NCBI GenBank assembly: GCA_028279405.1
Contig: JANQNU010000013.1
Location: forward strand, 1 to 64,000
Reading direction: 5' to 3'
Origin: Phycisphaerae bacterium
Lineage (GTDB): Bacteria > Planctomycetota > Phycisphaerae > UBA1845 > Fen-1342
DNA: 64,000 bases
In this document: one piece after another, positions 44,771 through 60,396 of the stretch
Layout: the number at the start of each line of letters is the position of its first letter
How positions within the stretch are numbered: the stretch's first letter is position 1
Program-made: the position numbers and the translations under genes
Notes under the pieces: generated by a model
Told to the model about the DNA's origin: nothing
Databases searched by the model: none
The model's input: the letters and a program-made list of their open reading frames with translations, nothing else

Positions 44771-44983
44771 ATGAACTGGAAGAGCAAGACCGCCGCGATG
44801 CTAATCGCAGCAGCGACGTTGTCCACGCAGACCGGCTGCGATTTTAACATCGAGGATTTTCGCCTCCTGCGTATCCGGGAGTTCACCGACGGGCCATGGC
44901 TACGCATCGAGGATGTCAACGGCGAAACCCAGATCCAATTCTTCGGAATCGAGATCGTCCGAGACCGAACTGCGGATGAATGA
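44771..44983 (+). CDS. Small lipoprotein
   Basis: 70 residues. A lipoprotein signal (KSKTAAMLIAAATLSTQTGC, Cys about residue 23) is followed by a short polar, beta-like domain (FRLLRIREFTDGPWLRIEDV). GAGGAAG precedes the ATG. It is the last gene of the secretion region, 83 bases after the TPR lipoprotein. Family not recognised. Confidence 0.6.
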   Translation: MNWKSKTAAMLIAAATLSTQTGCDFNIEDFRLLRIREFTDGPWLRIEDVNGETQIQFFGIEIVRDRTADE

Positions 44984-46103
44984 ATGCCTCGCCTTGCGGT
45001 TGATTCGACATTTTCGGTCAGTGCCAGCTGACGCTGTGCGCACTCTTCGCCGTTTGACAGTCTGCCTAGATAAACACCTTCGATCCGAAAGTGTACCCGT
45101 CTATGCGGCAGGGGGGGCGCACAGGCGCAGCGGAAGGACGTCCGAGTTCGCAAGCGCTGTTTCTGCAAGCGCTTGCGATCTTGCGCGGCTGAGTGCGATA
45201 ACCGGCAGGGGGGCTGAATGGGCGATACTGGACTCGAACAACCGCGTAAAACCAAGCGAAAAAGCGCCAATCACCACCCTAGGCGCAGCAAAAAGCGCAG
45301 CAGATTCGCCGGATGACAACTCGGGCAGCGAACCGAACAGCAACGGCGCTGATGACGATGACGAGCCGCCAGCGACAGTCGCGAATGGCGTCCAAGCGAC
45401 GACCGGCGCTCAGCAGGTGGTGGACCGCGCCAAGGTGGGGAATGGTGTCGCGCCGACGAGCACCCCGACAACGCCCCACGGCCGGCCCGAAGTGGTCCCT
45501 CGTGAGTGGTTCTCGAAATCTGCCGACGGGCACAACGGATCGGCTGCCTTCGGGGGACGATCATCCTCCATACCGCGCAGCCCGGGTTCCGGCGCCCTGG
45601 CTGACACTCTGGCAATGTTGTCGCGACTCCCATTGACCGACTACGAACGCACTGCGGCCGTTCGTGCGATCCTGTGCGCCCCTCCAGCTCCAACACCCCA
45701 CCAGGATGATCCTTGTTGGCCCAACGGCCCGGACGCTCCGGCTCCTGGCGATTCCCCCGACTACGCCTGCGGCGAAGGGGACGAACTGATCGATGCCGCT
45801 CACGATTTAGATCGCCCACTCGCCGCTCGACGCGTCCGCCGACCACCGGGATGGGGCAAGAAGCGCCCGCCGAAGAAGGACGAACCACCGACACCCCCAA
45901 CCATCCGGTTCCCGCCACCCGGCGACCCACCATACGGCGACGCGCTCCGCGTCATCCTGGCGTGGTTGAGTACATCCACCCAACGCTCGATCAAAGGGAT
46001 GGCCGACCGCATCCGTTCACTGAAGCGCACGGACCGCTTCCCCGCATGGTTCCTGGCCCATGTCGAGCATGTCGCACGTGAAGGAGACGAACCCGATGAA
46101 TAG
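44976..46103 (+). CDS. Chimeric ORF spanning the left att repeat
   Basis: The frame overlaps the small lipoprotein stop and runs through the 45-bp repeat. Residues about 68-90 (LARLSAITGRGAEWAILDSN) match the end of the integrase at 58907 (LVAITGRGDEWAILDSNQ), so this part is the tail of an older integrase. The stop that should follow is lost, and the frame continues into a Pro/Thr/Asp-rich region and a C-terminal segment with basic helices (GMADRIRSLKRTDRFPAWFL). The downstream half may be a genuine element protein with an internal start. Function unknown. Confidence 0.4.
   Translation: MNECLALRLIRHFRSVPADAVRTLRRLTVCLDKHLRSESVPVYAAGGAHRRSGRTSEFASAVSASACDLARLSAITGRGAEWAILDSNNRVKPSEKAPITTLGAAKSAADSPDDNSGSEPNSNGADDDDEPPATVANGVQATTGAQQVVDRAKVGNGVAPTSTPTTPHGRPEVVPREWFSKSADGHNGSAAFGGRSSSIPRSPGSGALADTLAMLSRLPLTDYERTAAVRAILCAPPAPTPHQDDPCWPNGPDAPAPGDSPDYACGEGDELIDAAHDLDRPLAARRVRRPPGWGKKRPPKKDEPPTPPTIRFPPPGDPPYGDALRVILAWLSTSTQRSIKGMADRIRSLKRTDRFPAWFLAHVEHVAREGDEPDE
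45148..45178. repeat. Perfect inverted repeat next to the left att repeat
   Basis: TCGCAAGCGCT (45148-45158) and AGCGCTTGCGA (45168-45178) form an 11-bp perfect stem with a 9-base loop, 16 bases left of the att repeat. It may be a terminator or a recombinase arm-type site. Confidence 0.5.
45195..45239. repeat. Left copy of the 45-bp att-like direct repeat
   Basis: Matches 60299-60343 at 44 of 45 bases (C at 45214 versus A at 60318). The last 21 bases equal the 3' end of the tRNA-Val gene in antisense; the first 24 equal the end of the integrase gene. Confidence 0.8.
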
Positions 46104-46361: not shown

Positions 46362-46958
46362 CTAGGCAGCCGTCGTATTCTCGAGCAGTCGCATGGCTTG
46401 GTCTGCCATCTGGCGAAGCACCGTCGTGCCCGTCGCTCCGCGTGCCATGACACGTATTCCGATGAATATACCAAGGAGTCCGGACGCAACGGCCGCGGAG
46501 TCCAGGTCTTTCGAGAACTCGCCGCGGATCTTGCCGAACTCGATCTGCTTCTCGAAGAACTTGCGGAAGTCCTCGAGCGCGGACCTGACGAGCAACTGCA
46601 CTTCCTCGTCATGTGCCTGTATCCCGAGCGCCGTGTTCACAAGAAAGCACCCGCGCTTGTTGAGGTCTTGCGACGACTGCTCGACAACGGCATCGAACGT
46701 CATCTGCAGGGAAGCGCGCGGTTCTCCGATCGCTTCGAGCGAACTCAGTGTTCGCTGACGCTGCTCGGTGTCATAGCGGAGCAGGGAGCGGATGAAGATC
46801 TTCCGCTTATCGCCGATCGCGTTGTAGAGGCTCTGGCGCTGGACGCCGGTTGCCTCGATCAGATCTGTCAGCGACGTGCCGTCGAAGCCCTTCTGCCAGA
46901 AGACCTCCATTGCGCGATCGAGCGTCTCATCGATTTCGAAGTTTTTCTTCCAAGGCAT
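46362..46958 (-). CDS. TetR-family repressor of the cargo operon
   Basis: 198 residues. N-terminal helix-turn-helix at about 10-57 (LDRAMEVFWQKGFDGTSLTD, LIEATGVQRQSLYNAI). The ligand domain contains GCFLVNTALG and LLGIFIGIRVMARG, similar to TetR proteins that control short-chain dehydrogenase or reductive-stress genes. It is divergent from the operon that begins at 47230, and matching TTGAC/GTCAA-type half-sites lie near both starts (46992-47006 and 47144-47159). Likely inducer: a reactive or halogenated substrate of the operon, by inference only. Confidence 0.9.
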   Translation of the reverse strand: MPWKKNFEIDETLDRAMEVFWQKGFDGTSLTDLIEATGVQRQSLYNAIGDKRKIFIRSLLRYDTEQRQRTLSSLEAIGEPRASLQMTFDAVVEQSSQDLNKRGCFLVNTALGIQAHDEEVQLLVRSALEDFRKFFEKQIEFGKIRGEFSKDLDSAAVASGLLGIFIGIRVMARGATGTTVLRQMADQAMRLLENTTAA

Positions 46959-46991
46959 GTGCTACCTCTCGTCGGCATCTCACGGCAATTA

Positions 46992-47006
46992 TTGACTAAC
47001 CGATCA
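46992..47006. promoter_or_regulatory. Second TetR half-site region
   Basis: TTGACTAACCGATCA is an imperfect dyad resembling the 47144 site. It is 34 bases upstream of the TetR gene and could mediate autoregulation. Confidence 0.45.
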
Positions 47007-47143
47007 TAACATGTTGTCGAGATCGAGTCAAAAATCACCCGCTGGGAAAAAGATTTTGAGATCAAAAAACGTCGCCGAAACCACCAAAATGCCGTTTTTC
47101 GCCCCCGATGGCATCTTTGGGGAGAAAGAGTGAGACATTTGTA

Positions 47144-47171
47144 TTGACCAAGTAGTCAAAACAGATAGACT
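47144..47171 (+). promoter_or_regulatory. Promoter with overlapping TetR operator for the cargo operon
   Basis: TTGACC (47144-47149) and TAGACT (47166-47171), separated by 16 bases, look like a sigma-70-type promoter. The sequence TTGACCAAGTAGTCAA (47144-47159) is a dyad covering the -35 box and spacer, well placed for repression. The first gene begins at 47230. Confidence 0.6.
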
Positions 47172-47229
47172 TTGTTTGTTGTGATTGTACCGTTCAGTCG
47201 CACATAAGGCCACGAACCAGGAGACTGCC

Positions 47230-47799
47230 ATGACCACGTTCGATCTTCACACCGCCGAGACCGCCCCCGAAGCCAAGGAACTCATCGAAGGCGCTCAGAA
47301 AGCCTACGGATTCCTGCCGAACCTCCTCGCCACCATGGCCGAGGCTCCGGCTCTTCTCGAGGGCTACATGACCCTCGCAACCATCTTCGACAAGACCAGC
47401 CTGTCGCCGACCGAGCGCCAGATCATCCTGATGGTCAACAACCGGCTCAACGGCTGCACCTACTGCATGTCGGCCCACACCGCAATCTCCAAGGCCCAAC
47501 GCGTGCCGGACGACGTCATCGAGGCGCTCCGCGACGGCACCGAGCTTGCGGATCCGAAGCTGGAGGCACTGCGTGTCTTTGCTGTTCGGATCAACGAAAG
47601 CCGCGGCTGGGTGGAGCAGAGCGATATCGACGTGTTGCTGGCCGCTGGCTACACGCAGCGCACGGTCTTCGAGGTCATCCTTGGTACCGCCTTGAAGGTG
47701 ATGTCTAACTACACCAACCACATTGCGCGCACTCCGCTCGATAAGGCGTTTTCAGCGGTTGAGTGGAGCCCGGCCGAACTCGCCGAGTCGACGCGCTAA
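47230..47799 (+). CDS. AhpD-like carboxymuconolactone decarboxylase-family protein
   Basis: 189 residues. The AhpD/CMD motif is present: ERQIILMVNNRLNGCTYCMSAH (E-x-n-C-x-x-C-x-x-x-H, Cys near residues 77 and 80). Such all-helical proteins act as peroxidases or disulfide reductants with alkyl hydroperoxide systems. GGAG precedes ATG 47230. First gene of the TetR-controlled operon, followed after 54 bases by the dehalogenase. It may supply thiol-based protection against reactive products. The exact reaction is not known. Confidence 0.85.
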   Translation: MTTFDLHTAETAPEAKELIEGAQKAYGFLPNLLATMAEAPALLEGYMTLATIFDKTSLSPTERQIILMVNNRLNGCTYCMSAHTAISKAQRVPDDVIEALRDGTELADPKLEALRVFAVRINESRGWVEQSDIDVLLAAGYTQRTVFEVILGTALKVMSNYTNHIARTPLDKAFSAVEWSPAELAESTR

Positions 47800-47853
47800 G
47801 CAAGCGTACGAGGAACTGATCACTGCAGCAGAACATTACGGAAGGAGACCATC

Positions 47854-48882
47854 GTGAACCAGTCTTCCACAATCGTCATCACCGCCTTGGCCCTGGCCGC
47901 GGCATCAAGCTTCGCTCCCGTTGCAGCCCAAACGGGCTCGACAGCGGACCAAACCAAGCCCGGGGTTCAGCAGCACAAGGTGCCCCCGCTCAACGTATCG
48001 CCAGTCATGCCGTACCAACACAAATACGTGGAGATCCTCGGGTCCACGATGGCCTACGTCGAAGCGGGCAAAGGCGATCCAATCCTTTTCCTTCACGGCC
48101 AGCCGACGTCGTCGTACCTCTGGCGAAACATCATGCCCGCTCTCGAGGGCCAGGGCCGTGTGATCGCTCCCGACAACATCGGTTTCGGGAAATCTGACCA
48201 ACCGGATCTCGACTACACGTTCGCCGATCACTACCGGTACATCGAAGCGTTCATTGAGAGGATGGAGCTCAAGAACGTGACCCTCGTCGTTCACGACTGG
48301 GGCTCCGGTTTGGGCCTGCACTATGCGCGGCTCAACTCCAAGAACGTCAAGGGCATCGTCACAATGGAGGCCATCATCGCGCCGCTGATCCCTGCTCGAA
48401 GCTACGACTCGATGCCTACGGACATCGGCAACTTCTTCCGCACCGTGCGAGATCCCGACAACGGCGAGCGGCTGCTCATCGACGAGAACTATTTCGTTGA
48501 GGGTGTACTGCCTGGCTTCATCTCGCGTCCGCTCGACAAGGCAGCGCACGATGTCTACCGCGAACCGTTCCCGAGCAGGAAATCGCGCAAGCAGGTGAAC
48601 CAGTGGCCCAATGAGATGCCGATCGGGAAAGTTCCGCTCGCGACTCACAACATCGTGACGGCGTACAACGAATGGCTTACCACGACCGATACACCGTGGC
48701 TTTTCTTGTACGCGAACCCGGGCGCTTTGAATACGCCGGAGGCAGCTGACTACTGGACGGCCCGGGCGAATAACATCGAAACGGTCTACATCGGCGCCGG
48801 CTTGCATTACGTGCAAGAGGATCAGCCGTATGCCATCGGACGGGCGATCTCTGACTGGTATCGCAGACTTGAGGCGAAGTGA
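47854..48882 (+). CDS. Haloalkane dehalogenase-like alpha/beta hydrolase with signal peptide
   Basis: 342 residues. A signal-peptide-like front (IVITALALAAASSFAPVAAQ) precedes a domain with HLD-II features: oxyanion loop HGQPTSSYLWR, nucleophile Asp148 in VVHDWGSGLG, Glu172 in TMEAI and catalytic His318 in GAGLHYVQED; Trp149 is the halide-binding Trp. The second halide ligand, Asn in DhaA/LinB (HGNPTSS), is Gln83 here. The family hydrolyses carbon-halogen bonds to alcohols. Export would place it in the periplasm, unusual for this family. AAGGAG precedes the GTG start. The substrate is unknown and a non-dehalogenase hydrolase activity is possible. Confidence 0.85.
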   Translation: MNQSSTIVITALALAAASSFAPVAAQTGSTADQTKPGVQQHKVPPLNVSPVMPYQHKYVEILGSTMAYVEAGKGDPILFLHGQPTSSYLWRNIMPALEGQGRVIAPDNIGFGKSDQPDLDYTFADHYRYIEAFIERMELKNVTLVVHDWGSGLGLHYARLNSKNVKGIVTMEAIIAPLIPARSYDSMPTDIGNFFRTVRDPDNGERLLIDENYFVEGVLPGFISRPLDKAAHDVYREPFPSRKSRKQVNQWPNEMPIGKVPLATHNIVTAYNEWLTTTDTPWLFLYANPGALNTPEAADYWTARANNIETVYIGAGLHYVQEDQPYAIGRAISDWYRRLEAK

Positions 48883-48956
48883 CTGTGGACTCAGGTGCTC
48901 GGCCCGCTTGGTACGCCATCCGTGCCTTGTATCAGCGAAGACACTGGAGCATTGAA

Positions 48957-50450
48957 ATGAACGCGAAGCTTATCACGCTGCTTGCCGGACTATTGACTGC
49001 GTCACCTTCCGCCACGCAAGCCGGTACTCGGCCTGAAGTCACCGTGATCGCCGAACTCGAGCACCCGCCCGGAAATCCGGCGGTTGGGATTGATAGTGAG
49101 GTCTATCTGTCCTTGCACCCTTTCGGAGCACCGAAATACAAGGTTGTCCGTCTCGATGAGAATGGTGTGTTGTCCCCATTCCCGAGCGAAGCCATATCTG
49201 CGGGGTTCCTGAACGTCATCGGCGTCACGGTTTCGGAAGATGGCATCGTCTGGATCCTCGATATGGGTGGCCCGGGTCAGAGTCCCAAGCTGCTTGGGTG
49301 GTCTCCTGCAGCAAACCGCCTCGAAGCCGTTCATTACATCCCCGATGAAGCGGTCGGCGCTAACCCTTTTCTCCAGGATCTCGCTGTCGATTCCAAAGGC
49401 CGGCGCGCGTACCTCGCAGACATGAGCCGAGGAGACCTTGTTGGTGTATCAGAGCCGGCAATCGTTGTTATCGACTTGGACACCGGCCAGACGCGACGAG
49501 TGCTCAACGGGCATGACATGTTTCAGCCCGAGCCTGATGCGATCCAACGCGCCGATGGGGAGCCAATGGTCTACACCAGAAGCGATGGCTCGTCCGAACG
49601 CTTCGCATTGGGCCTGAACCCGATCGGGATCGATGAACGGGGAGCGTTCGTTTACTTCTCGACGATCGCTCCGGGCTCGGTGTACCGCGTCCCTACCACC
49701 GTCCTCGGCGATTTCGAATCGAGCGACGAAGATATCGTAGCAGCCACTGAGAGCGTTGGTATGAAGAAGACGTCCGATGGATTGGTGGTCGCCGGATCAT
49801 CTGTCTATCTCACGAATGTCGAGGACGGCTCGATCGACGTTCTCGAAAATGGGTCGCGCCGTACACTCGTGACGGATGAGCGTTTTCGCTGGCCAGATGG
49901 CTTGGCGTTCACTCCTGACGGCGCGCTCGTCGCCACGATCAGCCAACTGCACAGGACGCCCGCGTTCAACGACGGGGTCGCGAGTGAACGTCCCCCGTAC
50001 CTCGTCGTGCGTATCGATGGCGTTTCGAATCAAAGGAGTTCTGTCCCAGCGACTCGTACTGTCGGAGCAATACCTCCAAGGCAATACGGTTCTGTCAGCG
50101 TCACTGATGCCGTAAGCGATCTCCCGAACACGAGCGACAAGCCGCTTGAACATGTTCATCTCGTCAACAACGGCGCGGTCGGAATCAGGGTATTCAGAAT
50201 CTACTCCCCGGTTCGGCGTCATCAGCACCGGTACTCGGACACCTATCTCCACATTCTGTCCGGACGGGCCGTCTTCGCAATCGAGGACAATGAGCCCTTC
50301 GCTGCAGGAGCCGGCGATCTATTGTTCTGGCAGCAAGGTACAGACCATCAAGTCATCCGAGTGATCGAAGGTCCGCTGGTGGTGTACGCCGTGGACACAC
50401 CAACCCGCCGTTTGGACGACGTGCACTTCGCGTCGCCTAGCAAAGACTGA
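48957..50450 (+). CDS. Exported MRJP/yellow-like propeller protein fused to a cupin
   Basis: 497 residues. Signal peptide about 1-22 (KLITLLAGLLTASPSATQA). Residues about 28-370 resemble the major-royal-jelly/yellow family six-bladed propeller (FLQDLAVDSKGRRAYLADMS, ALGLNPIGIDERGAFVYFST, WPDGLAFTPDGALVATISQL). Residues about 405-480 are a cupin with metal-type His pattern (RRHQHRYSDTYLHILSG, GDLLFWQQGTDHQVI). Fusion of these two domains is uncommon. ATG 48957 has GGAG eight bases ahead. It is the third gene of the operon. Possible roles are sugar-lactone-type hydrolysis or ligand binding; not determinable here. Confidence 0.75.
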   Translation: MNAKLITLLAGLLTASPSATQAGTRPEVTVIAELEHPPGNPAVGIDSEVYLSLHPFGAPKYKVVRLDENGVLSPFPSEAISAGFLNVIGVTVSEDGIVWILDMGGPGQSPKLLGWSPAANRLEAVHYIPDEAVGANPFLQDLAVDSKGRRAYLADMSRGDLVGVSEPAIVVIDLDTGQTRRVLNGHDMFQPEPDAIQRADGEPMVYTRSDGSSERFALGLNPIGIDERGAFVYFSTIAPGSVYRVPTTVLGDFESSDEDIVAATESVGMKKTSDGLVVAGSSVYLTNVEDGSIDVLENGSRRTLVTDERFRWPDGLAFTPDGALVATISQLHRTPAFNDGVASERPPYLVVRIDGVSNQRSSVPATRTVGAIPPRQYGSVSVTDAVSDLPNTSDKPLEHVHLVNNGAVGIRVFRIYSPVRRHQHRYSDTYLHILSGRAVFAIEDNEPFAAGAGDLLFWQQGTDHQVIRVIEGPLVVYAVDTPTRRLDDVHFASPSKD

Positions 50451-50462
50451 AAGGAATACATC

Positions 50463-51008
50463 ATGCTAGTTGATACCCCGATCTGTGACTTTGGCTGGAA
50501 AGCCCCGGACTTCACCCTTAAGGACCCGTCCGGTCGCTCCTTCACGATGAGTGATCACATGGGCAAGAACGGGTTGGTCATCGCTTTCATCTGTAACCAC
50601 TGCCCATATGTGCAGGCGATCGCGAACCGTCTCGCAAGCGACGCGGCAACGCTCAAGGCCGAGGGCATCGAAACCGTTGCGGTGATGTCGAACGACTATC
50701 GCTACGTGGCGGAAGATGCCCCACCGATGATGGCCCGCTTCGCGGAGCAGCACGGCTTTCCGTTCCCGTACGTGATTGATGAAGACCAGTCGGTGGGCAA
50801 AGCCTACGGGGCCGTCTGCACGCCGGACTTCTTCGGCTTGAACAATAAGGGTGAGTTGCAGTACCGCGGACGACTCGACAGCGCCGGCATGAAGGACCCG
50901 TCGAACCGTGTCGCCGAGCTCATCAACGCCATGCGTTTGGTGGCTGAGACCGGCCGAGGACCCGACGATCAGATCCCGAGCATGGGTTGCTCCATCAAGT
51001 GGCGTTGA
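50463..51008 (+). CDS. Thioredoxin-fold (AhpC/TSA-like) redox protein
   Basis: 181 residues. The start GWKAPDFTLKDPSGRSFTMS is that of AhpC/TSA-type proteins. The redox motif is FICNHCPYVQAIANRL (Cys pair at about 43 and 46, C-x-x-C). DEDQSVGKAYGAVCTPDFFG is the cis-Pro/active region common in this subfamily. Probably a cytoplasmic thiol oxidoreductase or peroxidase. It begins 12 bases after the MRJP-cupin gene, so is co-transcribed; with the AhpD-like first gene it gives the operon two redox members. Confidence 0.85.
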   Translation: MLVDTPICDFGWKAPDFTLKDPSGRSFTMSDHMGKNGLVIAFICNHCPYVQAIANRLASDAATLKAEGIETVAVMSNDYRYVAEDAPPMMARFAEQHGFPFPYVIDEDQSVGKAYGAVCTPDFFGLNNKGELQYRGRLDSAGMKDPSNRVAELINAMRLVAETGRGPDDQIPSMGCSIKWR

Positions 51009-51069
51009 TTCGCAGCTGTCAATAACCGCGCCGCACGAGGCACGAGACCACATACCAAGGAGAACCACA

Positions 51070-51813
51070 ATGAGCGTTGAAATCAATCAAGCGATCGCGC
51101 TGGTCACGGGCGCAAACCGTGGAATCGGAAAAGCAATCACAGAAGGGCTGTTGGAAGCTGGTGCGGTGAAGGTCTACGCGGCAGTGCGGAACCGCGACTC
51201 CGTCGGCAGCATGATCGAGAAGTACGGCGACCGGATCGTTCCGATCGAATACGACTTGACGAGGCCCGAAACTGCTGCCGCCGCTGCGAAAGTGGCGACG
51301 GATGTGAATCTGGTCGTCTCCAACGCCGGTGTCGTGAACGTTTCCGATCCGCTGGCCGCGGATGCGATCTCTAGCTTGCAGTTTCAGATGGAACGCAACG
51401 TCTATGCGTTGATACACTTGGCGCAAGCGTTCGGCCCGGTTCTCAAGGCCAACGGCGGCGGCGCACTCGCCCAGATGAACTCATTGGCGTCGCTGAAGAA
51501 CTTCACGCCATTCACGACATACAGCGCGTCAAAGGCGGCGGCATACTCCGTCACACAGGGACTCCGCGAAGCGTGGGCCGAACAGGGCACACACGTCATC
51601 AGCATCATCGCCGGACCGTTGAAGACCGACATGTCGGACTCCGCCGGTATGGGTGAAGGCGCTCCGCCGCCGTCCTTGGTCGCCGACGCATTGATCGGCG
51701 CATTGAAGTCTGGCGACTTCATCGTCTATCCCGATGAGATGGCTCAGCAGGCCGGAGCGGTGTACGCCAGCTTTGCCGACAACGTGATCAACCCGAAAGA
51801 GCCAGAAGCGTAG
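51070..51813 (+). CDS. Short-chain dehydrogenase/reductase (SDR)
   Basis: 247 residues, classical SDR size. NAD(P) motif TGANRGIG (about 12-19), NNAG equivalent VSNAGV, catalytic Ser in MNSLASL, and Y-x-x-x-K in YSASKAA (about 157-161). AAGGAG at 51058-51063 fixes the ATG at 51070. It oxidises an alcohol or reduces a carbonyl; in this operon it could act on the alcohol made by the dehalogenase, by inference from gene order. Confidence 0.9.
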   Translation: MSVEINQAIALVTGANRGIGKAITEGLLEAGAVKVYAAVRNRDSVGSMIEKYGDRIVPIEYDLTRPETAAAAAKVATDVNLVVSNAGVVNVSDPLAADAISSLQFQMERNVYALIHLAQAFGPVLKANGGGALAQMNSLASLKNFTPFTTYSASKAAAYSVTQGLREAWAEQGTHVISIIAGPLKTDMSDSAGMGEGAPPPSLVADALIGALKSGDFIVYPDEMAQQAGAVYASFADNVINPKEPEA

Positions 51814-51859
51814 TTGCTCGGCGTGCCACTCCCGGGACTCCAACTGAAGTGAGCTCGAT

Positions 51860-52663
51860 ATGGCTGAGAGAATCGAAGCACTGCTGGTCACGAAGGGGCA
51901 CGCGTTCGAACGCGAACCCTTCTTCGATATGATCGACGCGCTGCGGCGCGACAGTCATGGTGGCGGAGAGACGATCCACTGGACCCACGTTGAACACCCG
52001 GCTGCACAGGTGGTGCTCCACCCAGACCGTGGGGCGATGTTCGACGCGATCGTCTTTTACGACATGCCCGGTGTGCGTTTCACTCGAGGGGATCCGCCAT
52101 TCGAGACCTATGACCCGAGCGAAGCGTTCAAGGAGGCTTTTCTGTCACTTGTCAAACGCGGCAAGGGGCTGGTCTTCCTGCACCATGCTATTGCCGGGTG
52201 GCCCACCTGGCCGGAATACGCCAAGATCATCGGCGGCCGATTTCACTTCTTGCCCGGTGAACTCAACGGACGGCAGTTTCCCGGGTCGGGCTACCGGTTT
52301 CGGGTCACACAAGAAGTCAACGTAGCTGATCCGTCGCACCCGATCGTTGAGGGGCTTGGTGAGCGCTTCACATTCAAGGATGAGGCCTACATGTTTCCGG
52401 CTCTCGAAGAAGAGGTAAGACCACTGCTCGAAAGTGACTTCGATTTCTCACCGAAGAACTTCAGATATGGCGGCGTCGGATTTGAGTCCCATCCGAACGG
52501 AACTTCTCTTCTTGGCTGGACAAAGCGCTACGGTAACTCGCCAATCGTGTATCTGCAGCCCGGGCACGAGCGAGTCGCATACGAAGATCCGCGATTCAGG
52601 AAGATCGTACGCAACGCGATAATCTGGGCGACCCACGAAGCCCGACGCTACCTGGACCATTAA
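51860..52663 (+). CDS. ThuA-like domain protein
   Basis: 267 residues matching the ThuA-like class I amidotransferase-fold family across its length (EALLVTKGHAFEREPFFDMI, FDAIVFYDMPG, KGLVFLHHAIAGWPTWPEYA, IVYLQPGHERVAYEDPRFRK). ThuA proteins are linked to trehalose or other sugar use, but their reaction is unclear. Last gene of the cargo operon, 46 bases after the SDR. No signal peptide. Confidence 0.85.
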   Translation: MAERIEALLVTKGHAFEREPFFDMIDALRRDSHGGGETIHWTHVEHPAAQVVLHPDRGAMFDAIVFYDMPGVRFTRGDPPFETYDPSEAFKEAFLSLVKRGKGLVFLHHAIAGWPTWPEYAKIIGGRFHFLPGELNGRQFPGSGYRFRVTQEVNVADPSHPIVEGLGERFTFKDEAYMFPALEEEVRPLLESDFDFSPKNFRYGGVGFESHPNGTSLLGWTKRYGNSPIVYLQPGHERVAYEDPRFRKIVRNAIIWATHEARRYLDH

Positions 52664-53034
52664 AGCCATTGGCGGACGTAGTCCGGCGCACCGCACGGGT
52701 CCTTCCTGAGTAAATCCAGGTGTGCGGGCGGCAGCACGCCGGAAAATCGATAAGAACGTCGATTGAAAACAGCACTACTATGGCAATGTCCGTGAGCGTG
52801 CGGCGGGCGCCGTGGCGAGACTGGTCATCGTTCGGCGGAGCGTGTCGTCCTGGGGCGGTATGCATCGGAGTGGCAATCCGGGAGGTACTGGGGACCGCCT
52901 AGTAGGGGCGCGGCATTACAGGTTCGGATTTCCCACCAGATCTAGTTATAGTAGAATCCCTTGCGATACTCGCGCGCGCGGTTGGGCTAGGATTCTGGAA
53001 TTCGTCGTCTTAAGCGGACGGATGGAGAATCGCG
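52664..53034. other. Gap between the cargo operon and phage-like genes
   Basis: About 370 bases with no convincing gene, repeat or terminator. The segment GTTATAGTAGAAT near 52945 is A/T-rich and may hold a promoter for the 53035 gene. Confidence 0.4.
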
Positions 53035-53361
53035 ATGCCGTACGTCACCAAACTCGAGTTGTGTCAGTTCTTGGGCCGGTCGTCCGAATGGGTCCAGTAC
53101 ATCAAGAACAAGGGACTCCTCGACGGGATTTCCCATTACGAAGACGGTCGCCTGATGGTCGATTCGCATCAACTCACGGACCGACTGGTTAGGTACTACA
53201 CGCGGCTTCGGGACTCGCCGGCGATGCGCGCGGCGCGACTCAAACGCATCCAGATCCAAGACGAGCTACTCGAACTCAAGCTCGAACGCCTGAGGAATGG
53301 CGAGGGGCGGACCTACCCGGTCTACCGACAATCGCGCAGCTTCCTGCGCCGCCGCTCGTAG
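53035..53361 (+). CDS. Small DNA-binding protein (phage Nu1/terminase-small-like)
   Basis: 108 residues. N-terminal helix-turn-helix (LELCQFLGRSSEWVQYIKNK, about 7-27) followed by a long charged helix (RAARLKRIQIQDELLELKLE) resembling small terminase/Nu1-type proteins, which bind phage DNA ends. GGAGAATCGCG precedes the ATG. It stands alone, without large terminase or capsid genes, so packaging is unlikely; it may be a relic or a regulator of the element. Confidence 0.5.
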   Translation: MPYVTKLELCQFLGRSSEWVQYIKNKGLLDGISHYEDGRLMVDSHQLTDRLVRYYTRLRDSPAMRAARLKRIQIQDELLELKLERLRNGEGRTYPVYRQSRSFLRRRS

Positions 53362-53454
53362 GCTCCTGATGGCCTTCCGAACGGGAAACGAGCATCACCG
53401 ATCGGTGAGCGTCGATCACAGATGCAGCCCAGGCGAGCCCCAGACACACCGTCC

Positions 53455-53694
53455 TCACTTCTTCGGCGGCTTACCGTGCGCCCGCCAGTTCTTGTCATAT
53501 CGCCCGACTGACCAGACCTTGCCCGATTCATTGTCCAGGACGAACGCACATGAACTGCTGTCGCCAGCCGCCGCAATCTGGTAGCGCGGTTGCCGGGAAT
53601 CGGCACGACCGTTCGCCTGGGTCACTCCGAATGCCGCGGACAGCACAACACCGACACAGGTTCCAAGTCCGATCCACTTCGCTCGGCCGTTCAT
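53455..53694 (-). CDS. Small secreted protein
   Basis: 79 residues. Signal peptide (AKWIGLGTCVGVVLSAAFG) then a compact domain (YQIAAAGDSSSCAFVLDNES, GKVWSVGRYDKNW) reminiscent of short bacterial proteins that carry a single repeat of a beta-propeller-like blade. GGGAGG precedes the ATG. It is on the opposite strand to its neighbours. Function unknown. Confidence 0.6.
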   Translation of the reverse strand: MNGRAKWIGLGTCVGVVLSAAFGVTQANGRADSRQPRYQIAAAGDSSSCAFVLDNESGKVWSVGRYDKNWRAHGKPPKK

Positions 53695-53948
53695 CTGATC
53701 CTCCCTTCGATTGAGTGTTCATGCTCTCTCCACCCCGGGGCCTTCAGCTACGAACATCATACCCTAATCGGCACCGTCGCTTGCCGCCGGAAGGACCGCG
53801 CGGATTAACGTTGCGTCGCCGATAGACACGCGAGATACTACTGTGGCATTCGTGGTCAGTCGGAGTTGGGCCGGCTATTGCTTGTCGCGCTCGATCCCGT
53901 GCCTTGGCCGGCGCGGTGCCGCGCGATCCTGCAGAAAGGCAGGCACCT

Positions 53949-54632
53949 ATGGCGCGATCTCCACACGGTACGTGGATCTGGCCACCACGGCCGTCTTCAA
54001 GTGGGTACGGCAACTTTCTGTACGATGGCGAGGAACAACTCCAACCCGGTGGCCTGCACGGAGAACCGCACTACTTGGTGATTCGGAATCGAAGACGGCG
54101 CCATTATGATCGCCCTCCGCCGCCGAAAACGATCAAACAACGCTTTGGGTCGACCGCGTACTACGTCCCGACCAAGGACGATTACTCGACGATGGCGCGC
54201 TTTTGCCCAGAAGGCGCGCCCGGGAATGTGTCATGGATGCAGGTTCAGCGGGCGCTGTTCGGCGCCGGCCACACCTTAGGTGACTTGAAGCCTCTTACAG
54301 CGCCGTTGTGGGTCGACTTGGTCGCCAAGCTCGATCACTCATCAACGCACGATACACCGGACGCAGAGGTCAAAATGACCGAACGGGCGAGGAAAGCGTT
54401 CAGCCTCTTCCAGCATGCCGAGCGGCAGATTCTGGAAGCCACCAACAGGCAGCCCACCGATGCGGAAGTGCATCAGTACCTTTGGAAGCGTGGTGAAACT
54501 CAACTCTCTTGCGCCACTTTCACGCGTTACGTTAGGTACGCACGTCGTGTGCTGCGCCTGCAAAGACGCACTTCGCGGGCCAACCGTGCGCTGGAGGGTC
54601 GTAGCATCGTCGAACACGAACAGATCGAGTAG
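53949..54632 (+). CDS. Hypothetical element protein, possible sigma/HTH-like C-terminus
   Basis: 227 residues from ATG 53949, chosen for the AAAGGCAGG ahead. The first half is Arg/Tyr/Pro-rich with no recognised domain (YYVPTKDDYSTMARFCPEGA). The second half is helical (RARKAFSLFQHAERQILEAT, PTDAEVHQYLWKRGETQLSC, ATFTRYVRYARRVLRL) with a pattern like a DNA-binding winged or recognition helix. It lies upstream of the AlpA-like gene in the presumed element core. Function unknown. Confidence 0.5.
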   Translation: MARSPHGTWIWPPRPSSSGYGNFLYDGEEQLQPGGLHGEPHYLVIRNRRRRHYDRPPPPKTIKQRFGSTAYYVPTKDDYSTMARFCPEGAPGNVSWMQVQRALFGAGHTLGDLKPLTAPLWVDLVAKLDHSSTHDTPDAEVKMTERARKAFSLFQHAERQILEATNRQPTDAEVHQYLWKRGETQLSCATFTRYVRYARRVLRLQRRTSRANRALEGRSIVEHEQIE

Positions 54633-54818
54633 TACTGGCGAGCGCGGACGAAATCGGATGTTCCGCGCACTTTTTTCCCCCCTTGAAACCGCGTTCTCGA
54701 CGCACCAGAGCACATCCGCGCGGACGTCCGCGCATCCGGTTTGTGGTTCATAGCAGGCGTGCAGAGTCCGACGGAGTGATCCGCGGGCACGTCTGAACCA
54801 ACAAGCTGGAGTTCACGG

Positions 54819-55049
54819 ATGAACCCGAACGAACCCACCCATGGGGCGCAACCCGCTCTACTCGACGTCCAAGCTGTTGCGGCGCTACTGGGATGCTCGA
54901 CCCGCACGATCTACCGACTCACCGATGCTGACAGGATGCCGCGGCCTGTTCGACTCGGCACACTCGTCCGCTGGAATCGCGATGAGCTGCTCAACTGGAT
55001 CGCAAGCGGATGTACGCCACGGGAAAGCAGTAATGGGGGTGTGTCGTGA
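54819..55049 (+). CDS. AlpA/excisionase-like helix-turn-helix protein
   Basis: 76 residues. The MerR/AlpA-type HTH fills the middle (LLDVQAVAALLGCSTRTIYR, then LTDADRMPRPVRLGTLVRWN). In this family, that pattern (HTH, then W-x-R/K wing) marks excisionases and element regulators. GGAG is nine bases ahead of the ATG. It sits at the start of a replication/integration module, so it probably controls excision or the module promoter. Confidence 0.8.
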   Translation: MNPNEPTHGAQPALLDVQAVAALLGCSTRTIYRLTDADRMPRPVRLGTLVRWNRDELLNWIASGCTPRESSNGGVS

Positions 55050-55163
55050 TGGATTCCTACCGTAGGAATCACCGCGAACTTCCGATCGGCACGCGCTTGT
55101 CGACCGCCGCTGGTATGCACGCCGCGGATTCGCCGCATAGTGACCGCTTCGAGAGAGCCGCCA

Positions 55164-56003
55164 ATGGCCGGTAGCTGGATCCTCATGCGCTCCGCGCTGC
55201 CAGACGATCTGCGGGTCCACGCGCTCTCTGAGCTGACCGAGCTGCCCCCGGACGCCGTCGTGGGCAAGCTGCTGCGCTTCTGGGCGTGGGCCAACGAGAA
55301 CACGCGCGACGGCGTCCTGCGGCGGGCGACCGACAAATTGGTCGACGATCAGGTCGGACATCCGGGCTTTGCGAGTGCGCTGCGAACCGTGGAATGGCTC
55401 GACGATGACGGCGATGGCTCGTTGCTGATCCCGGATTTCGACGTGTACAACTCGAAGTCGGCTAAGAATCGCGCCCGACACACACGGATTGTCGGCGAGC
55501 AGCGCACCAACCAACGACGAGGCAGCACGGACGATCAAGTCAGCCAAGCCGCGCGCACGACACGTGCGCCCGAGTGCGCACAACCTGTGCGCGCCGATTG
55601 CGCACCCAAAGAAAGAAATAAAGAAAGAGAGAAAGAAACAAAGAAAGACGAAGATAGGGCTTCCGCCCGTCCGCCGCTGCTGCCGCGAATCTCCTGGAAT
55701 CCAGACGACGGCTGGTCGGGAATCACGACCGAACACCGCACGCAATGGTCGCGGCTCTATCCACTCGTCCCCATCGACCGGTTCCTGGCAACGATGGACG
55801 GCTGGTGCCGCGACAACCCGAACAAACGGCCCCGGACGAAGTTCAACGCTGCATTGACCCGCTGGCTCGGTCGCGAGCAAGCGCAACTCGAAATGAACGC
55901 AAAGGATGGATCCAATGACGACGCGAAAGGAACATCGCGAACCCGCGGACACCGCGGCATCGACGAAAGCATCCCGATCCGGCGCCGAATCGGCGAGCCT
56001 TGA
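55164..56003 (+). CDS. Phage-type replication initiation/organiser-like protein
   Basis: 279 residues. N-terminal region about 5-90 (LPDDLRVHALSELTELPPDA, VGKLLRFWAWANENTRDGVL) resembles the N-domain of phage replisome-organiser proteins. A charged Lys/Glu linker (KERNKEREKETKKDEDR) leads to a C-terminal helical domain (HRTQWSRLYPLVPIDRFLAT, RPRTKFNAALTRWLGREQAQ) like DnaB/DnaD-loading modules. The ATG at 55164 is preferred over GTG 55140. The end overlaps the DnaC-like ATPase start, so the two are probably partners in loading helicase on element DNA. Confidence 0.6.
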   Translation: MAGSWILMRSALPDDLRVHALSELTELPPDAVVGKLLRFWAWANENTRDGVLRRATDKLVDDQVGHPGFASALRTVEWLDDDGDGSLLIPDFDVYNSKSAKNRARHTRIVGEQRTNQRRGSTDDQVSQAARTTRAPECAQPVRADCAPKERNKEREKETKKDEDRASARPPLLPRISWNPDDGWSGITTEHRTQWSRLYPLVPIDRFLATMDGWCRDNPNKRPRTKFNAALTRWLGREQAQLEMNAKDGSNDDAKGTSRTRGHRGIDESIPIRRRIGEP

Positions 56004-56676
56004 GTCTCGGGCGATGGTCGCACGCGCCTTATCGAGCGGCGAGTCATACAAGTGCAAACGCTGCAACGAGCAGGTCTATGGCGCTCCCGGCGACCATTCT
56101 CTGTGCGCGGACTGTGAGGACACGTGGAGAGCCACCCAACGGCGATTCGAGGCGGCGCACCTACCCCGGCTGCACTCCGGTCGTTCGAGCTGGGACACCC
56201 TTCTAGCAAACCCGCCATACACGCCGATGGACGCCTACCGTGCCGCGGTCCGCGAGTTTGCGGCCAGTCAACACGCCTTCGTGGCAATCATCGGCCGACG
56301 CGGTACCGGCAAGACGCAGATCGCAACAACGGCAATCTCCGAACGCATCCGCAAGGGCCGCTGGGGACGCTACACGACCGCAATCAACCTGATGGGCGAC
56401 TTCATTAATCGCCCGACCGAAGACAACGCGTGGCGGGCCGAATGGAGTTCTTATCCGTACCTCGTGATCGACGAGCTGCATCAGACGCTCCGGACCGAGG
56501 CGCAGCGCACCCAATTCGAATCGCTGATGGATGAACGATACATGGCAACGCGCGTGACCGTGCTGATCGCAAACGAGGACCTCAAGGGCTTTCAAGAGCT
56601 GGTCGGCCCATCCGTTTGTCGGCGAATCGACGAGGCGGGCGCAATCCTGGAATGTAACTGGACGCCGATACGGTGA
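55915..56676 (+). CDS. DnaC/IstB-like ATP-binding helicase-loader protein with zinc finger
   Basis: 253 residues from ATG 55915. A four-Cys zinc finger (YKCKRCNEQVYG, HSLCADC) precedes an AAA+ ATPase: Walker A GRRGTGKTQIA and Walker B YLVIDELHQ, then a sensor region (VTVLIANEDLKGFQELVGPS). This is the layout of DnaC-like loaders encoded by phages and integrative elements. It overlaps the replication protein by about 90 bases and lies 115 bases upstream of the truncated integrase. Confidence 0.75.
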   Translation: MTTRKEHREPADTAASTKASRSGAESASLESRAMVARALSSGESYKCKRCNEQVYGAPGDHSLCADCEDTWRATQRRFEAAHLPRLHSGRSSWDTLLANPPYTPMDAYRAAVREFAASQHAFVAIIGRRGTGKTQIATTAISERIRKGRWGRYTTAINLMGDFINRPTEDNAWRAEWSSYPYLVIDELHQTLRTEAQRTQFESLMDERYMATRVTVLIANEDLKGFQELVGPSVCRRIDEAGAILECNWTPIR

Positions 56677-56791
56677 GGCACGATCAAGTGCGAAACGCCT
56701 CAAACCACTGACGGCTCGACGAAACGAGCGACTTTCTAATGGGCTCAGCACCCGAGTCGGGGTATCCTTCCACGAGAACGGAGGGCAATTC

Positions 56792-57280
56792 ATGGCATCG
56801 CTAGTCACCTACGGGTCGGGGCTTCGGCGGATTGATTTCAATCTGGAGCGGAACGGTCGGCGACGGTCGATTCGGCTCGGACGCGTGAATGCCAAGGCGG
56901 CACAGAGCATCAAAGCGCGCGTCGAAGCGATCATCGCCGACAAGCTCGCCAATCGACCGCACGATCAGGAGACCGCTACCTGGCTCGGTCAACTCGACGA
57001 GGCGATGCGCGCCAAGCTTCGGTCCGCCGGACTCGTGTCAGGCACCGGACGCTCCGATGCCACCCTTGGCAACTTTCTACGCCGATACTTCAACGGGCTT
57101 GCGGTCAAGGACTCGACGCGGGCCGCATACGGGCACACTCGCCGAAACCTCGAAGAGTTCTTCGGGCGACACCAACCACTCCGCACGATCGCGCCCGCGG
57201 ACGCCAACGAGTGGCGTGTCTGGCTGGTGGACGATCAACGACTTTCAAAAGCCACCGTCGGCCGGCGTGTCGGCTGCGCC
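56792..57280 (+). pseudogene. Truncated tyrosine integrase (N-terminal part only)
   Basis: From ATG 56792 (GGAGGG ahead) to about 57280 the product is nearly identical to residues 1-163 of the integrase at 58907, ending at KATVGRRVGCA. The frame then runs into antisense fba sequence and stops at 57385. The catalytic domain (R, H-x-x-R, Y) is missing, so it cannot recombine DNA. The break point is the 3' end of the fba gene on the other strand, which marks a deletion or recombination junction. Confidence 0.85.
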
Positions 57281-58365
57281 GCGCGCTGTCCGAGCGTGTT
57301 GATGTTCTGCAGGTCCTCGAATGCCGCGACCAGGCGCGCTTTGAAGGACTCCTCGCCCTTGCGCAGCCAATTGCGCGGATCGTAGTAGCCTTTGTTCGGC
57401 TGGTCGGGCCCCTCGGGGTTGCCGAGTTGGGAGTCCAGGTACGCCTGCTTTTCCTGATAGAACAGCCGTACACCGTCCCACAGCGCCCATTGCAGGTCTG
57501 TGTCAATGTTGAACTTGACGACCCCGTAGGAGATCGCTTCACGGATTTCCTCCAGCGTGGAGCCGGATCCGCCGTGAAACACGAAGCAGATCGGATTCTC
57601 TCCGGTCCCGAACTTCTTTTGCACATAGACCTGCGAATCGCGCAGAATCTTGGGTTGCAGCGAGACATTGCCCGGCTTGTATACGCCGTGGACGTTTCCG
57701 AACGAGGCTGCGATCGTGAAACAATCGCTCACCTTGATCAACTCCCCATAGGCGTACGCCACATCCTCGGGCCGTGTATAGAGGTGGGCCGGATCGACGT
57801 TCGAGTGATCAACCCCATCTTCCTCGCCGCCGGTTACGCCCAGCTCAAACTCCAGCGTCATGCCGAGCCTGCTGGTGCGCTCCAGGTAGCGCTTCACCGT
57901 TTCAATGTTCTCCTGCAAAGCGTCCGTCGACAGATCCACCATGTGCGAACTGAACAGGGGCCGCCCGTGCACCCGGTAGAACTCCTCGCCGAAGTCGAGC
58001 AGGCCGTCCAGCCAGGGCAGGAGCTTCCGCGCGCAGTGATCTGTGTGCAGGATCACCCGGGCCCCATACGCCGCCGCCAAGCGATGCACGTGCTCGGCGC
58101 CGGCGATCGCGCCCGCGATCGCCGCTTGTTGGCCGGCGTTGTCCAACCCCTTGCCAGCGAAGAACGCCGCCCCGCCATTTGAGAACTGAAGGAAGACGGG
58201 CGAGTTGACTTCCCGTGCCGTCTCCAACACGGCGTTCACCGTGTTCGATCCCGTGCAGTTGACCGCCGGCAGCGCGAACGAGCGCTGCTTGGCCAGGGTC
58301 AAAAGAGCCCGTACGTCATCGCCGACGAGCACGCCGGGCGGAAACCGGTTGGCTGTGTTGGTCAT
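57235..58365 (-). CDS. fbaA: Class II fructose-1,6-bisphosphate aldolase, C-terminus altered by integrase sequence
   Basis: 376 residues. Class IIA aldolase with zinc/catalytic residues in HTDHCARKLLPW (Asp-x-His), FGNVHGVYKPG and FVFHGGSGSTLEE; GVDHSNVDPAHLYTRPEDVA is typical. It splits fructose-1,6-bisphosphate into dihydroxyacetone phosphate and glyceraldehyde 3-phosphate. The family normally ends near FEDLQNINTL. Here an extra 18 residues or so (from GQRAAQPTRRPTVAF) are encoded antisense to the truncated integrase. The core is intact, so activity is plausible. A housekeeping gene inside an element zone is unexpected. Confidence 0.92.
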   Translation of the reverse strand: MTNTANRFPPGVLVGDDVRALLTLAKQRSFALPAVNCTGSNTVNAVLETAREVNSPVFLQFSNGGAAFFAGKGLDNAGQQAAIAGAIAGAEHVHRLAAAYGARVILHTDHCARKLLPWLDGLLDFGEEFYRVHGRPLFSSHMVDLSTDALQENIETVKRYLERTSRLGMTLEFELGVTGGEEDGVDHSNVDPAHLYTRPEDVAYAYGELIKVSDCFTIAASFGNVHGVYKPGNVSLQPKILRDSQVYVQKKFGTGENPICFVFHGGSGSTLEEIREAISYGVVKFNIDTDLQWALWDGVRLFYQEKQAYLDSQLGNPEGPDQPNKGYYDPRNWLRKGEESFKARLVAAFEDLQNINTLGQRAAQPTRRPTVAFESR

Positions 58366-58906
58366 AGTGCGTCTCCTCTGAATGGGCCCAATGGGATCCT
58401 AGCCCCGGTAGACACCGCCAAGCAAGTCCAAGTCCCGCCGTCCTGCTCGTGTGGCGCCGTGGCATCGATTCCGAAGCGGCCAGTGGAGTTGAACGGCGGT
58501 TGCAGCGCCGCGAGGTCCGTGCCGTAACGCGCGAAAGCCGACCGCATCAAGTGGCGAACGGCGCAGCGTGCAAAGGCAAGACTCGACGCGAGCTCATCGC
58601 GGGTCGGCGAACACTGGGTATGGGCGCTGCCCACATGCAGTGAGGACGCGCCAACGGGGTCTACGTCAGGGGCAGACGACGACTGCCAGGAGCGTCAAGA
58701 ATGCCAAGAGCGCCAACAGCGCCAAACTCCGGAGCTTGGCATCCTTGGCGGCCTTGGCGGGGATGAGCCTCGACGCGAGAAAGACGGTCCGGCAGGCACC
58801 GGCACATCAGAGGCTACAGAAATTGGCGCGGATCGTCCCACGAACACGGACGACACGATATCCTAGAAACTTCAATCGCGCACAACGCGCACACAAGGGG
58901 CAGTTC
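58366..58906. other. Gene-free stretch between fba and the intact integrase
   Basis: About 540 bases with no convincing gene. It contains a periodic GCCAA palindrome (58701-58760, separate entry). Promoters for the divergent fba and integrase genes should be here, but none is clear. Confidence 0.5.
58701..58760. repeat. Periodic GCCAA inverted repeat
   Basis: Three GCCAA units at about 10-base spacing (58703, 58712, 58721) face three TTGGC units (58736 onward). The halves meet at CTCC/GGAG (58727-58734). 21 of 30 positions pair. Probably an interspersed palindromic element or a terminator-like structure. Confidence 0.5.
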
Positions 58907-60349
58907 ATGGCTTCGCTTGTCACCTACGGGACGGGGCTTCGGCGGATTGACTTCAATCTGGAACGGAACGGTCGACGACGGTCGATCCGGCTCGGACGGG
59001 TGAACGCCAAGGCGGCACAGAGCATCAAAGCTCGCGTTGAGGCGATCATCGCCGACAAGCTCGCCAATCGACCGCACGATCAGGAGACCGCTACCTGGCT
59101 CGGCCAACTCGACGAGGCGCTGCGCGCGAAGCTCCGATCGGTCGGCCTCGTGTCAGGCGCAGGGCGCTCCGATGCCACGCTTGGCAACTTCCTACGTCGA
59201 TACTTCAACGGACTCGCCGTTAAAGACTCGACGCGGACCGCGTACGGTCACACTCGCCGAAACCTCGAAGAGTTCTTCGGGCAGCGACGACTACTCCGCA
59301 CGATTGCCCCCGCGGACGCCGACGAGTGGCGTGTTTGGCTGGTAGACGATCAACAACTCTCGAAAGCCACCGTCGGTCGGCGCGTCGGCTGCGCCCGCTC
59401 CATCTGGCGAACCGCGATTCGCTGGAAGCTCGCCGCCGAAAATCCGTTCGATGGCGTCAAAGGCGGGCAGCAGGCCAACGATGAGCGAAAGCAGTTCATT
59501 CCGCCCGAGACCGCTGAACGGCTACTCGAAGCCGCTCCGGATGCGGAATGGCGCGCGATCATCGCACTCTCGCGTTACGGCGGGCTGCGGACACCAAGCG
59601 AACCGTTCGCATTGCGGTGGTCAGACATTGACTGGGATCGAGGAACGGTCCGCGTCACTTGCCCGAAGCAGGCGCATAACGAACGGTACGCATCGCGACA
59701 GATTCCGCTATTCCCCGAGCTACGCTGCGTGTTGCTCGACCTTTTCGAGCAGGCGCCGGACGGCAGCGAGTACGTGATCGATCGACTGCGGCAAGGAGCG
59801 TCGAACCTGCGAACCCACTTCGAGCGGATTATCCGACGTGCCGGACTGGAGCCGTGGCCTCGGCTTTTCCACAACCTGCGTGCCAGCCGACAGAGCGAGC
59901 TGATGGAAGACTTTGCGCTCCCGACGGTCTGCGAATGGCTCGGCAACTCGCCGGTGATCGCGGCCCGGCACTACGTCACGAGCATTGATCTCGATTCGGA
60001 CCTTCGGCGGGCGGCGGGAATGGATCGAGTGGGCGCCACAGCGAGCGATAACGGTATGTCTCACCAAAACGGCTTCCCAATTCAGGACGCTCATAACACT
60101 GGCGGACTAGCCGCCAGTGCCATCCAACCGAATAGAAGCGCCCACACTTCCAACCAGGCGCAGCAACCTTCGCGCGAGGCGCAGCAAAATGCGCAGCAGT
60201 CCACAGCCGTCAGGGGTGTTCAGGCGTTGACGGGAGATTCGGCGTGGAGCGCGCAAGTCGATGGTGTGTCAGAAGTTGACGACGTTCGGCAATTGGTGGC
60301 GATAACCGGCAGGGGGGATGAATGGGCGATACTGGACTCGAACCAGTGA
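58907..60349 (+). CDS. Tyrosine recombinase/integrase, intact
   Basis: 480 residues. N-terminal arm-binding and core-binding regions (about 1-185) share near identity with the truncated copy. The catalytic domain (about 195-370) has the Arg in YGGLRTPSE (about 223-230), H-x-x-R in FHNLRASRQSEL (about 320-324), LGNSPVIAARHY and nucleophile Tyr (about 355). A Gln/Ala-rich linker follows (QAQQPSREAQQNAQQS). The final EWAILDSNQ lies antisense in the tRNA-Val gene. ATG 58907 has AAGGGG ahead; the longer frame upstream is not protein-like. It should integrate its element at the tRNA. Confidence 0.9.
   Translation: MASLVTYGTGLRRIDFNLERNGRRRSIRLGRVNAKAAQSIKARVEAIIADKLANRPHDQETATWLGQLDEALRAKLRSVGLVSGAGRSDATLGNFLRRYFNGLAVKDSTRTAYGHTRRNLEEFFGQRRLLRTIAPADADEWRVWLVDDQQLSKATVGRRVGCARSIWRTAIRWKLAAENPFDGVKGGQQANDERKQFIPPETAERLLEAAPDAEWRAIIALSRYGGLRTPSEPFALRWSDIDWDRGTVRVTCPKQAHNERYASRQIPLFPELRCVLLDLFEQAPDGSEYVIDRLRQGASNLRTHFERIIRRAGLEPWPRLFHNLRASRQSELMEDFALPTVCEWLGNSPVIAARHYVTSIDLDSDLRRAAGMDRVGATASDNGMSHQNGFPIQDAHNTGGLAASAIQPNRSAHTSNQAQQPSREAQQNAQQSTAVRGVQALTGDSAWSAQVDGVSEVDDVRQLVAITGRGDEWAILDSNQ
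60299..60343. repeat. Right copy of the 45-bp att-like direct repeat
   Basis: Covers the end of the integrase coding region and the first 21 bases (3' end) of the minus-strand tRNA-Val gene. Partner of 45195-45239. Confidence 0.8.
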
Positions 60350-60396
60350 CCTCGTGGATGTCGACCACGCGCTCTAGCCAACTGAGCTAATCGCCC
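60323..60396 (-). tRNA. tRNA-Val (anticodon GAC)
   Basis: 74 bases, folding on the minus strand as a full cloverleaf: acceptor GGGCGAT/ATCGCCC, D stem GCTC/GAGC, anticodon stem CGTGG/CCACG around loop TCGACAT (anticodon GAC), T stem ACTGG/CCAGT with TTCGAGT loop, discriminator A. CCA is not encoded. Position 33 is C rather than the nearly universal U. Its 3' end is the integrase target, and the integrase stop codon lies inside it in antisense. Confidence 0.9.

Follow-up and report, generated by a model that had tools for sequence, protein, structure and literature searches.

The window analysed here, 64,000 nucleotides of contig JANQNU010000013.1 from a Phycisphaerae bacterium, carries at 46,362-52,663 a cluster in which a TetR-family regulator gene on the minus strand faces six plus-strand genes (47230-52663) separated by gaps of only 12-74 bp. 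These encode, in order, an AhpD-like protein of the CMD family, an exported haloalkane dehalogenase (HLD), an exported MRJP-type beta-propeller fused to a cupin, a thioredoxin-like protein of the AhpC/TSA family (hereafter TSA), a short-chain dehydrogenase/reductase (SDR) and a ThuA-family protein (Table 1). The same six closely spaced families had been named in an earlier note made from the letters of the window, and Pfam and NCBIfam matches bear them out. The label AhpC/TSA-like holds at the level of the family, but this protein carries a CNHC motif and its closest kin are thioredoxin-like thiol-disulfide proteins (2ywi, E 3e-34; 2cvb, E 5e-31). We found no credible terminator inside the operon; terminator-like matches fall only within coding sequence and are rarer than in shuffles. 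Export was judged by eye from the N-terminal sequences. The dehalogenase, which the note had called exported, indeed begins in a signal-peptide-like manner, a hydrophobic N-terminus ending in AxA preceding the mature domain in the window and in most relatives, with an n-region that in the window enzyme lacks a basic residue. The propeller-cupin protein, which the note had not listed as such, also looks exported, and the other four products look cytoplasmic.

Table 1. The operon, its predicted control sites and the island that encloses it (positions in the window)
Feature	Position	Strand	Evidence
CifR-like TetR repressor gene, facing the operon	46362..46958	-	PF00440 and PF16925
Weak operator copy, tetR promoter side	46989..47010	.	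10.3 bits (11.9 in the first scan), second-best in 64 kb; overlaps predicted tetR promoter
Main predicted operator, GTATTGACCAAGTAGTCAAAAC	47141..47162	.	Leave-out PWM 22.6 bits; covers predicted -35 (47144-47149); dyad conserved in 9 other loci
Predicted sigma-70-like promoter, TTGACC-16-TAGACT	47144..47171	+	Consensus scan, 9/12 matches, not above shuffle level
AhpD/CMD-family thiol enzyme, CTYC-x3-H	47230..47799	+	CMD PF02627 E 7e-9; motif conserved
Exported haloalkane dehalogenase, HLD-II-like	47854..48882	+	NF002938, residues, closest structures, tree
Exported MRJP/SGL-type beta-propeller and cupin fusion	48957..50450	+	PF03022 E 2e-9; Cupin_2 PF07883 E 5e-8
Thioredoxin-like TSA protein, CNHC motif	50463..51008	+	AhpC-TSA PF00578 E 1e-19
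Short-chain dehydrogenase/reductase	51070..51813	+	adh_short PF00106 E 8e-30; NF006120 342 bits, above cut-off
ThuA-family protein	51860..52663	+	PF06283 E 4e-25
Left 45-bp direct repeat (attL)	45195..45239	+	98% identical (one mismatch) to 60299-60343; 36-bp core, 0 expected in shuffles
Right 45-bp direct repeat (attR)	60299..60343	+	Overlaps tRNA-Val 3' end; 15,104 bp from attL
Island tyrosine integrase, abutting the tRNA	58568..60349	+	Phage_integrase PF00589 E 3.6e-10
tRNA-Val(GAC), integration site	60323..60396	-	ARAGORN

By sequence the hydrolase is a haloalkane dehalogenase of an unusual kind. It scores 362 bits against NF002938, whose curated cut-off is 241, its closest solved structures are AncHLD5 and then DmxA, and the triad D148, H318 and E172 is intact together with the halide-binding W149. 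The second halide-stabilising residue, Asn in standard HLD-II enzymes, is replaced by Gln83. At this position all HLDs of the related operons described below carry Gln, those of Psychromonas carry Glu, and Asn is found in nearly all the other HLD-II relatives that were scanned. Because DmxA, an accepted HLD-II, has the same Gln (PMC6920932), we file the window enzyme, on its residues, as a variant of the HLD-II pentad and not as a standard member. DmxA, in which this residue is Gln40, turns over 26 of 30 halogenated substrates and prefers brominated ones, its overall activity being low (PMC6920932). In a tree of 92 HLDs the operon enzymes form one clade with support of 100/100, which conflicts with taxonomy; DmxA is placed in another clade, and the change from Asn to Gln may therefore have arisen more than once.

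The regulator would suit electrophile sensing. The solved structures nearest to it are 2i10 and CifR, the latter being the nearest named protein (6nsn, E 7e-16), and its Cys104 aligns with CifR Cys107 and is invariant in 10 of 10 operon regulators; the CifR structure 6nsm has Ser at the Cys107 position. CifR represses an exported epoxide hydrolase, an alpha/beta-hydrolase, and releases DNA when epoxides are present (PMC8244358). Identity of the exported hydrolase of the window with such a Cif-type epoxide hydrolase is ruled out by the HLD model, the closest structures and the residues.

A 22-bp operator resembling GTTTTGACCGATCGGTCAAAAC was predicted from nine other loci (L022-L030), the window site being excluded from the training set. 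Dyads of the form GTTT(T/A)(G/T)ACCGATCGGT(C/A)(A/T)AAAC lie upstream of both the operon and tetR in these loci, and with leave-one-locus-out position weight matrices (PWMs) the sites score 16-31 bits, the top score in each locus. The earlier note had placed a TetR dyad over the -35 region of the operon promoter, and it is there that the leave-out model finds its best site, at 22.6 bits against 10.3 for the next best in the 64 kb, which lies by the tetR promoter that a consensus scan predicts at 47031-47003. A first version of the scan, in which one training site was mis-trimmed, gave 23.6 at the main site, while the highest score among 1000 versions of the intergenic region simulated with a first-order Markov model was 18.3. 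When nine whole genomes were searched with the operator pattern, matches were found in six, every one at the operon locus; given that the pattern derives from these same sites, the informative part is the absence of other matches. The strict pattern has no match in the window's own genome, its operator being divergent. Operators also precede the SDR gene in L023, L025 and L029 and the ThuA gene in L026, where these genes are detached, which ties SDR and ThuA to the regulon.

How widely is this arrangement kept? No close HLD relative was detected in 40 genomes of the same family or order, where matches are of partial length and 23-47% identical, and 392 genomes of the phylum hold a single other close relative, of 50% identity, with a 37% identical TetR alone alongside. 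This near-absence rules out an operon native to the host lineage. The 16S rRNA of the host is an exact match to the EUB338-II signature, in keeping with Planctomycetota. When 84,980 species genomes were scanned, by contrast, HLDs with 60-75% identity emerged from loci placed in Leptolyngbyaceae, Chromatiales, Hyphomicrobiales, Pirellulales, Pseudomonadales, Rhizobiaceae, Leisingera, another alphaproteobacterium and Flavobacteriales. In nine loci besides the window, assigned to Cyanobacteriota, Planctomycetota and Pseudomonadota, TetR and HLD always occur together and most partners accompany them, so that the search for conserved synteny proposed in the note gave a positive answer. Among the ten operator-bearing loci (the window and L022-L030) TetR and HLD are present in 10, TSA in 9, AhpD in 7, SDR in 6, ThuA in 4 and the propeller and/or cupin in 3, the propeller standing alone in L028 and the cupin part alone in L029. 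Most partners are 60-80% identical across loci; in the operon relatives the CNHC motif of the TSA protein is invariant and the S-Y-K residues of the SDR are conserved. Given that the HLD clade conflicts with taxonomy, the gene set is one that, as judged from the tree, has spread horizontally. Most of the relatives are contigs of metagenome-assembled genomes, some of them short, and gene absences and individual taxon labels thus carry some risk: L023 and L025 are closely similar and come from one sample, yet were binned to different phyla. L028 belongs to a named strain, Leisingera sp. SS27.

These data bear on an alternative in which common stress genes assorted by chance within an island and TetR controls its neighbour only. 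Homologues of AhpD, TSA and SDR do occur alone on plasmids and the gene content of the loci varies, but the repeated co-occurrence of most partners at this level of identity in loci assigned to three phyla, and the shared operator, also found before the detached SDR and ThuA genes, make such an origin very improbable, and we rule out a chance grouping on synteny and operator. The refuting case that the note had named, genes occurring separately with no shared regulation, is the opposite of what we find in the nine other loci, although single-gene homologues also occur alone elsewhere.

Other arrangements also occur. In L026, where AhpD is absent, a short AhpD-like start (MTESTFHTES, at about 8829-8900) stands ahead of the HLD gene and suggests a deleted gene. 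A diverged version from Flavobacteriales (Bacteroidota; L031, 7769-12542) comprises an old yellow enzyme (OYE), HLD, AhpD, TSA, ThuA and an ABM protein; it lacks the TetR and operator of the operon and is probably under another regulator. In Psychromonas (L032, and the near-identical L054) the HLD genes number three, and an AlkD-like gene for the repair of alkylated DNA lies with them within 10 kb, likewise without the operon's TetR and operator. No relative was found in IMG/VR, which we searched for viral carriage. Plasmid carriage of the same operon was rejected, as the best plasmid HLD, from Nostoc, is 50% identical and sits within a biosynthetic-type cluster different from the operon.

In the window itself the operon lies inside a 15.1-kb island, in agreement with the note, which had it carried in an element zone. 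Direct repeats delimit the island, one of them at the 3' end of an intact tRNA-Val gene, and the integrase lies at that same end; a truncated second integrase copy is found at 56771-57283. Elsewhere in the family, in other genera, tRNA-Val likewise adjoins an FHA gene, without this island and with different flanks, and in another genus an integrase relative (48% identical) lies beside the same tRNA. Thus, by sequence comparison, the site looks like an integration hotspot. Comparison with other genera of the family did not reveal the precise empty site. In genome G007 the FHA gene adjoins a homologue of window 38101-40059, with no secretin or TPR homologues between them. Reading frames cross both att repeats, so that the integrase and the reading frame 44913-46103 have in common the peptide ITGRG-EWAILDSN, which the repeat at the tRNA end encodes. 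A class II fructose-bisphosphate aldolase gene, the only copy found in the genome, lies between the truncated and the intact integrases (57235-58365, minus strand; PF01116 E 2e-75). The rest of the island (52700-56700) holds short reading frames without Pfam matches and an IstB/DnaC-like ATPase (55906-56676, E 4.5e-6), which suggests a replication-type module.

The partner genes offer links to dehalogenation. The haloacid dehalogenase (HAD) genes that adjoin HLD in four relatives (L024, L026, L028 and L029) score above the curated threshold for the type II family, which supports a role in dehalogenation. Glutathione S-transferase (GST) genes are found in L022 and L028, and the OYE beside HLD in L031 is NEM-reductase-like. 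Among solved structures the AhpD-like protein is closest to the plain AhpD 6e8l (E 3e-38), the Bmp8 debrominase (6ohi, E 4e-7) being distant, and the propeller matches 2qe8 (E 1e-46). Plasmids of Klebsiella, E. coli and Salmonella encode a haloacid dehalogenase type II together with a CMD relative 47% identical to the window AhpD (L147, 4498-6552), and in a Klebsiella plasmid record a divergent TetR faces these two genes with TTGAGTGATCACTCAA-like dyads between them; here CMD and a dehalogenase are brought together in a set distinct from the operon.

Do these genes form a pathway for growth? The lin (linB-linC-linD) and 1,2-dichloroethane pathways lead from an HLD through a dehydrogenase to a further dehalogenase, and a catabolic route of this kind for one organohalide, ending in usable carbon, would account for the pairing of HLD with SDR, for the GST of L022 and L028 and for the type II HADs of four relatives. 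The operon, however, has no transporter, no aldehyde dehydrogenase and no gene for entry into the central pathways, the window's genome has no HAD type II above the cut-off, and redox partners under an electrophile-type regulator suit detoxification better, so that we consider a growth pathway unlikely.

A different alternative concerns the substrate: the exported hydrolase, with Gln83, may no longer act on halides and may take an epoxide, a lactone or an ester, the operon being a general set against reactive-electrophile or quinone stress. The clade-wide loss of the halide-stabilising Asn, the sensing of epoxides by relatives of CifR (PMC8244358) and the OYE and ABM genes adjoining relatives would all fit such a set. 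On the other hand, the nucleophile, the halide-binding Trp, the Glu and the His are all retained, DmxA with its Gln is a functioning dehalogenase (PMC6920932), and haloacid dehalogenases are co-located in relatives. We therefore regard this alternative as rather unlikely.

Taken together, the operon is probably a horizontally spread, self-regulated system that senses and detoxifies reactive, probably halogenated organic compounds, a CifR-Cif-like arrangement with a dehalogenase as its exported hydrolase. The CifR-like TetR, the predicted operator before the operon and weakly before tetR, the clustering, the catalytic residues of the HLD and the tRNA-Val island are read directly from the sequence; that the operon serves detoxification and not growth is inferred. 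A module of this general kind, catabolic or detoxifying and directed at a halogenated or otherwise reactive compound, had been suggested in the note; the conserved TetR-HLD set, the shared operator and the HAD type II of four relatives argue for it. The NEM-reductase-like OYE of L031, the AlkD-like gene near the HLDs of Psychromonas and the Klebsiella plasmid set also speak in favour of our reading. Without inducer, TetR would sit on the operator and block the -35 element, and an alkylating or electrophilic compound that reacts with Cys104 or binds near it would release the repressor. The exported HLD would then act in the periplasm, where cleavage of the carbon-halogen bond would yield an alcohol, and the SDR would, in the pathway order that we propose, oxidise alcohols entering the cell; where a HAD type II is present, as in some relatives, it would remove a halogen from the haloacid so formed. 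As a thiol pair, the AhpD-like and CNHC proteins may repair or reduce products that have been oxidised or alkylated, and the propeller-cupin and ThuA proteins may process further products and be optional. The genes would have been acquired through the island as accessory detoxification cargo.

Several observations weigh against this detoxification model. The tetR-side operator is degenerate in the window; no HAD type II above the cut-off was found in the window's genome, which therefore lacks the full halo-acid route; AhpD, SDR, ThuA and the propeller-cupin are missing from some relatives and may thus be optional; and in the DmxA structure the Gln makes no contact with the halide site (PMC6920932), which renders a halide substrate less certain. 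A bolder proposal, which we hold to be quite unlikely, is that the Gln-type HLD clade serves as a periplasmic dehalogenase for a natural brominated compound, coupled to a second dehalogenation, reductive and thiol-based, by the AhpD-like and CNHC proteins and related to Bmp8. The whole would be a two-compartment system under the control of a cysteine electrophile sensor, and one that has passed from phylum to phylum.

No published description of this gene cluster was found in the open-access literature. HLDs are widespread, yet for most of them little has been learned of what they act on in nature or of how they are controlled. The operon links one HLD clade with a repressor of its own, a predicted operator, recurrent partners and a probably mobile carrier, and substrate, inducer and physiological role thereby become directly testable. 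The finding would connect CifR-type electrophile sensing with dehalogenation and reveals, across a whole clade, a change at a catalytic residue previously termed unique in DmxA.

Among known systems CifR-cif is close in design. In the morB-MFS-cif locus of Pseudomonas aeruginosa and the cif-like loci of Acinetobacter and Burkholderia, as in the operon, an exported alpha/beta-hydrolase is accompanied by a divergently transcribed TetR gene, whose product belongs to the same subfamily and has the corresponding Cys, and the OYE beside HLD in L031 parallels morB beside cif. The hydrolase of the operon, in contrast, is an HLD with dehalogenase motifs and its partners are AhpD, the CNHC thioredoxin-like protein, SDR, ThuA and HAD type II; the operon thus appears to work like CifR-Cif but is not CifR-Cif. 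DmxA of Marinobacter sp. ELB17 (PDB 5mxp), an HLD-II and the second-best structure match, shares the Gln at the halide-stabilising Asn position, yet it belongs to a separate clade and the motif differs between the two, HGQPTW as against HGQPTS. In the lindane pathway linB-linC-linD, too, an SDR comes after the HLD, and some operon relatives also have a GST; LinB, the lin member that we compared, is about 42% identical to the window HLD. Finally, the enterobacterial plasmid set of TetR, HAD-II and CMD (NZ_CP092394) likewise combines a divergent regulator of the same broad TetR family with a dehalogenase and a CMD protein 47% identical to the window AhpD, but its dehalogenase is a HAD and not an HLD, its TetR is about 28% identical and its operator-like dyads are different.

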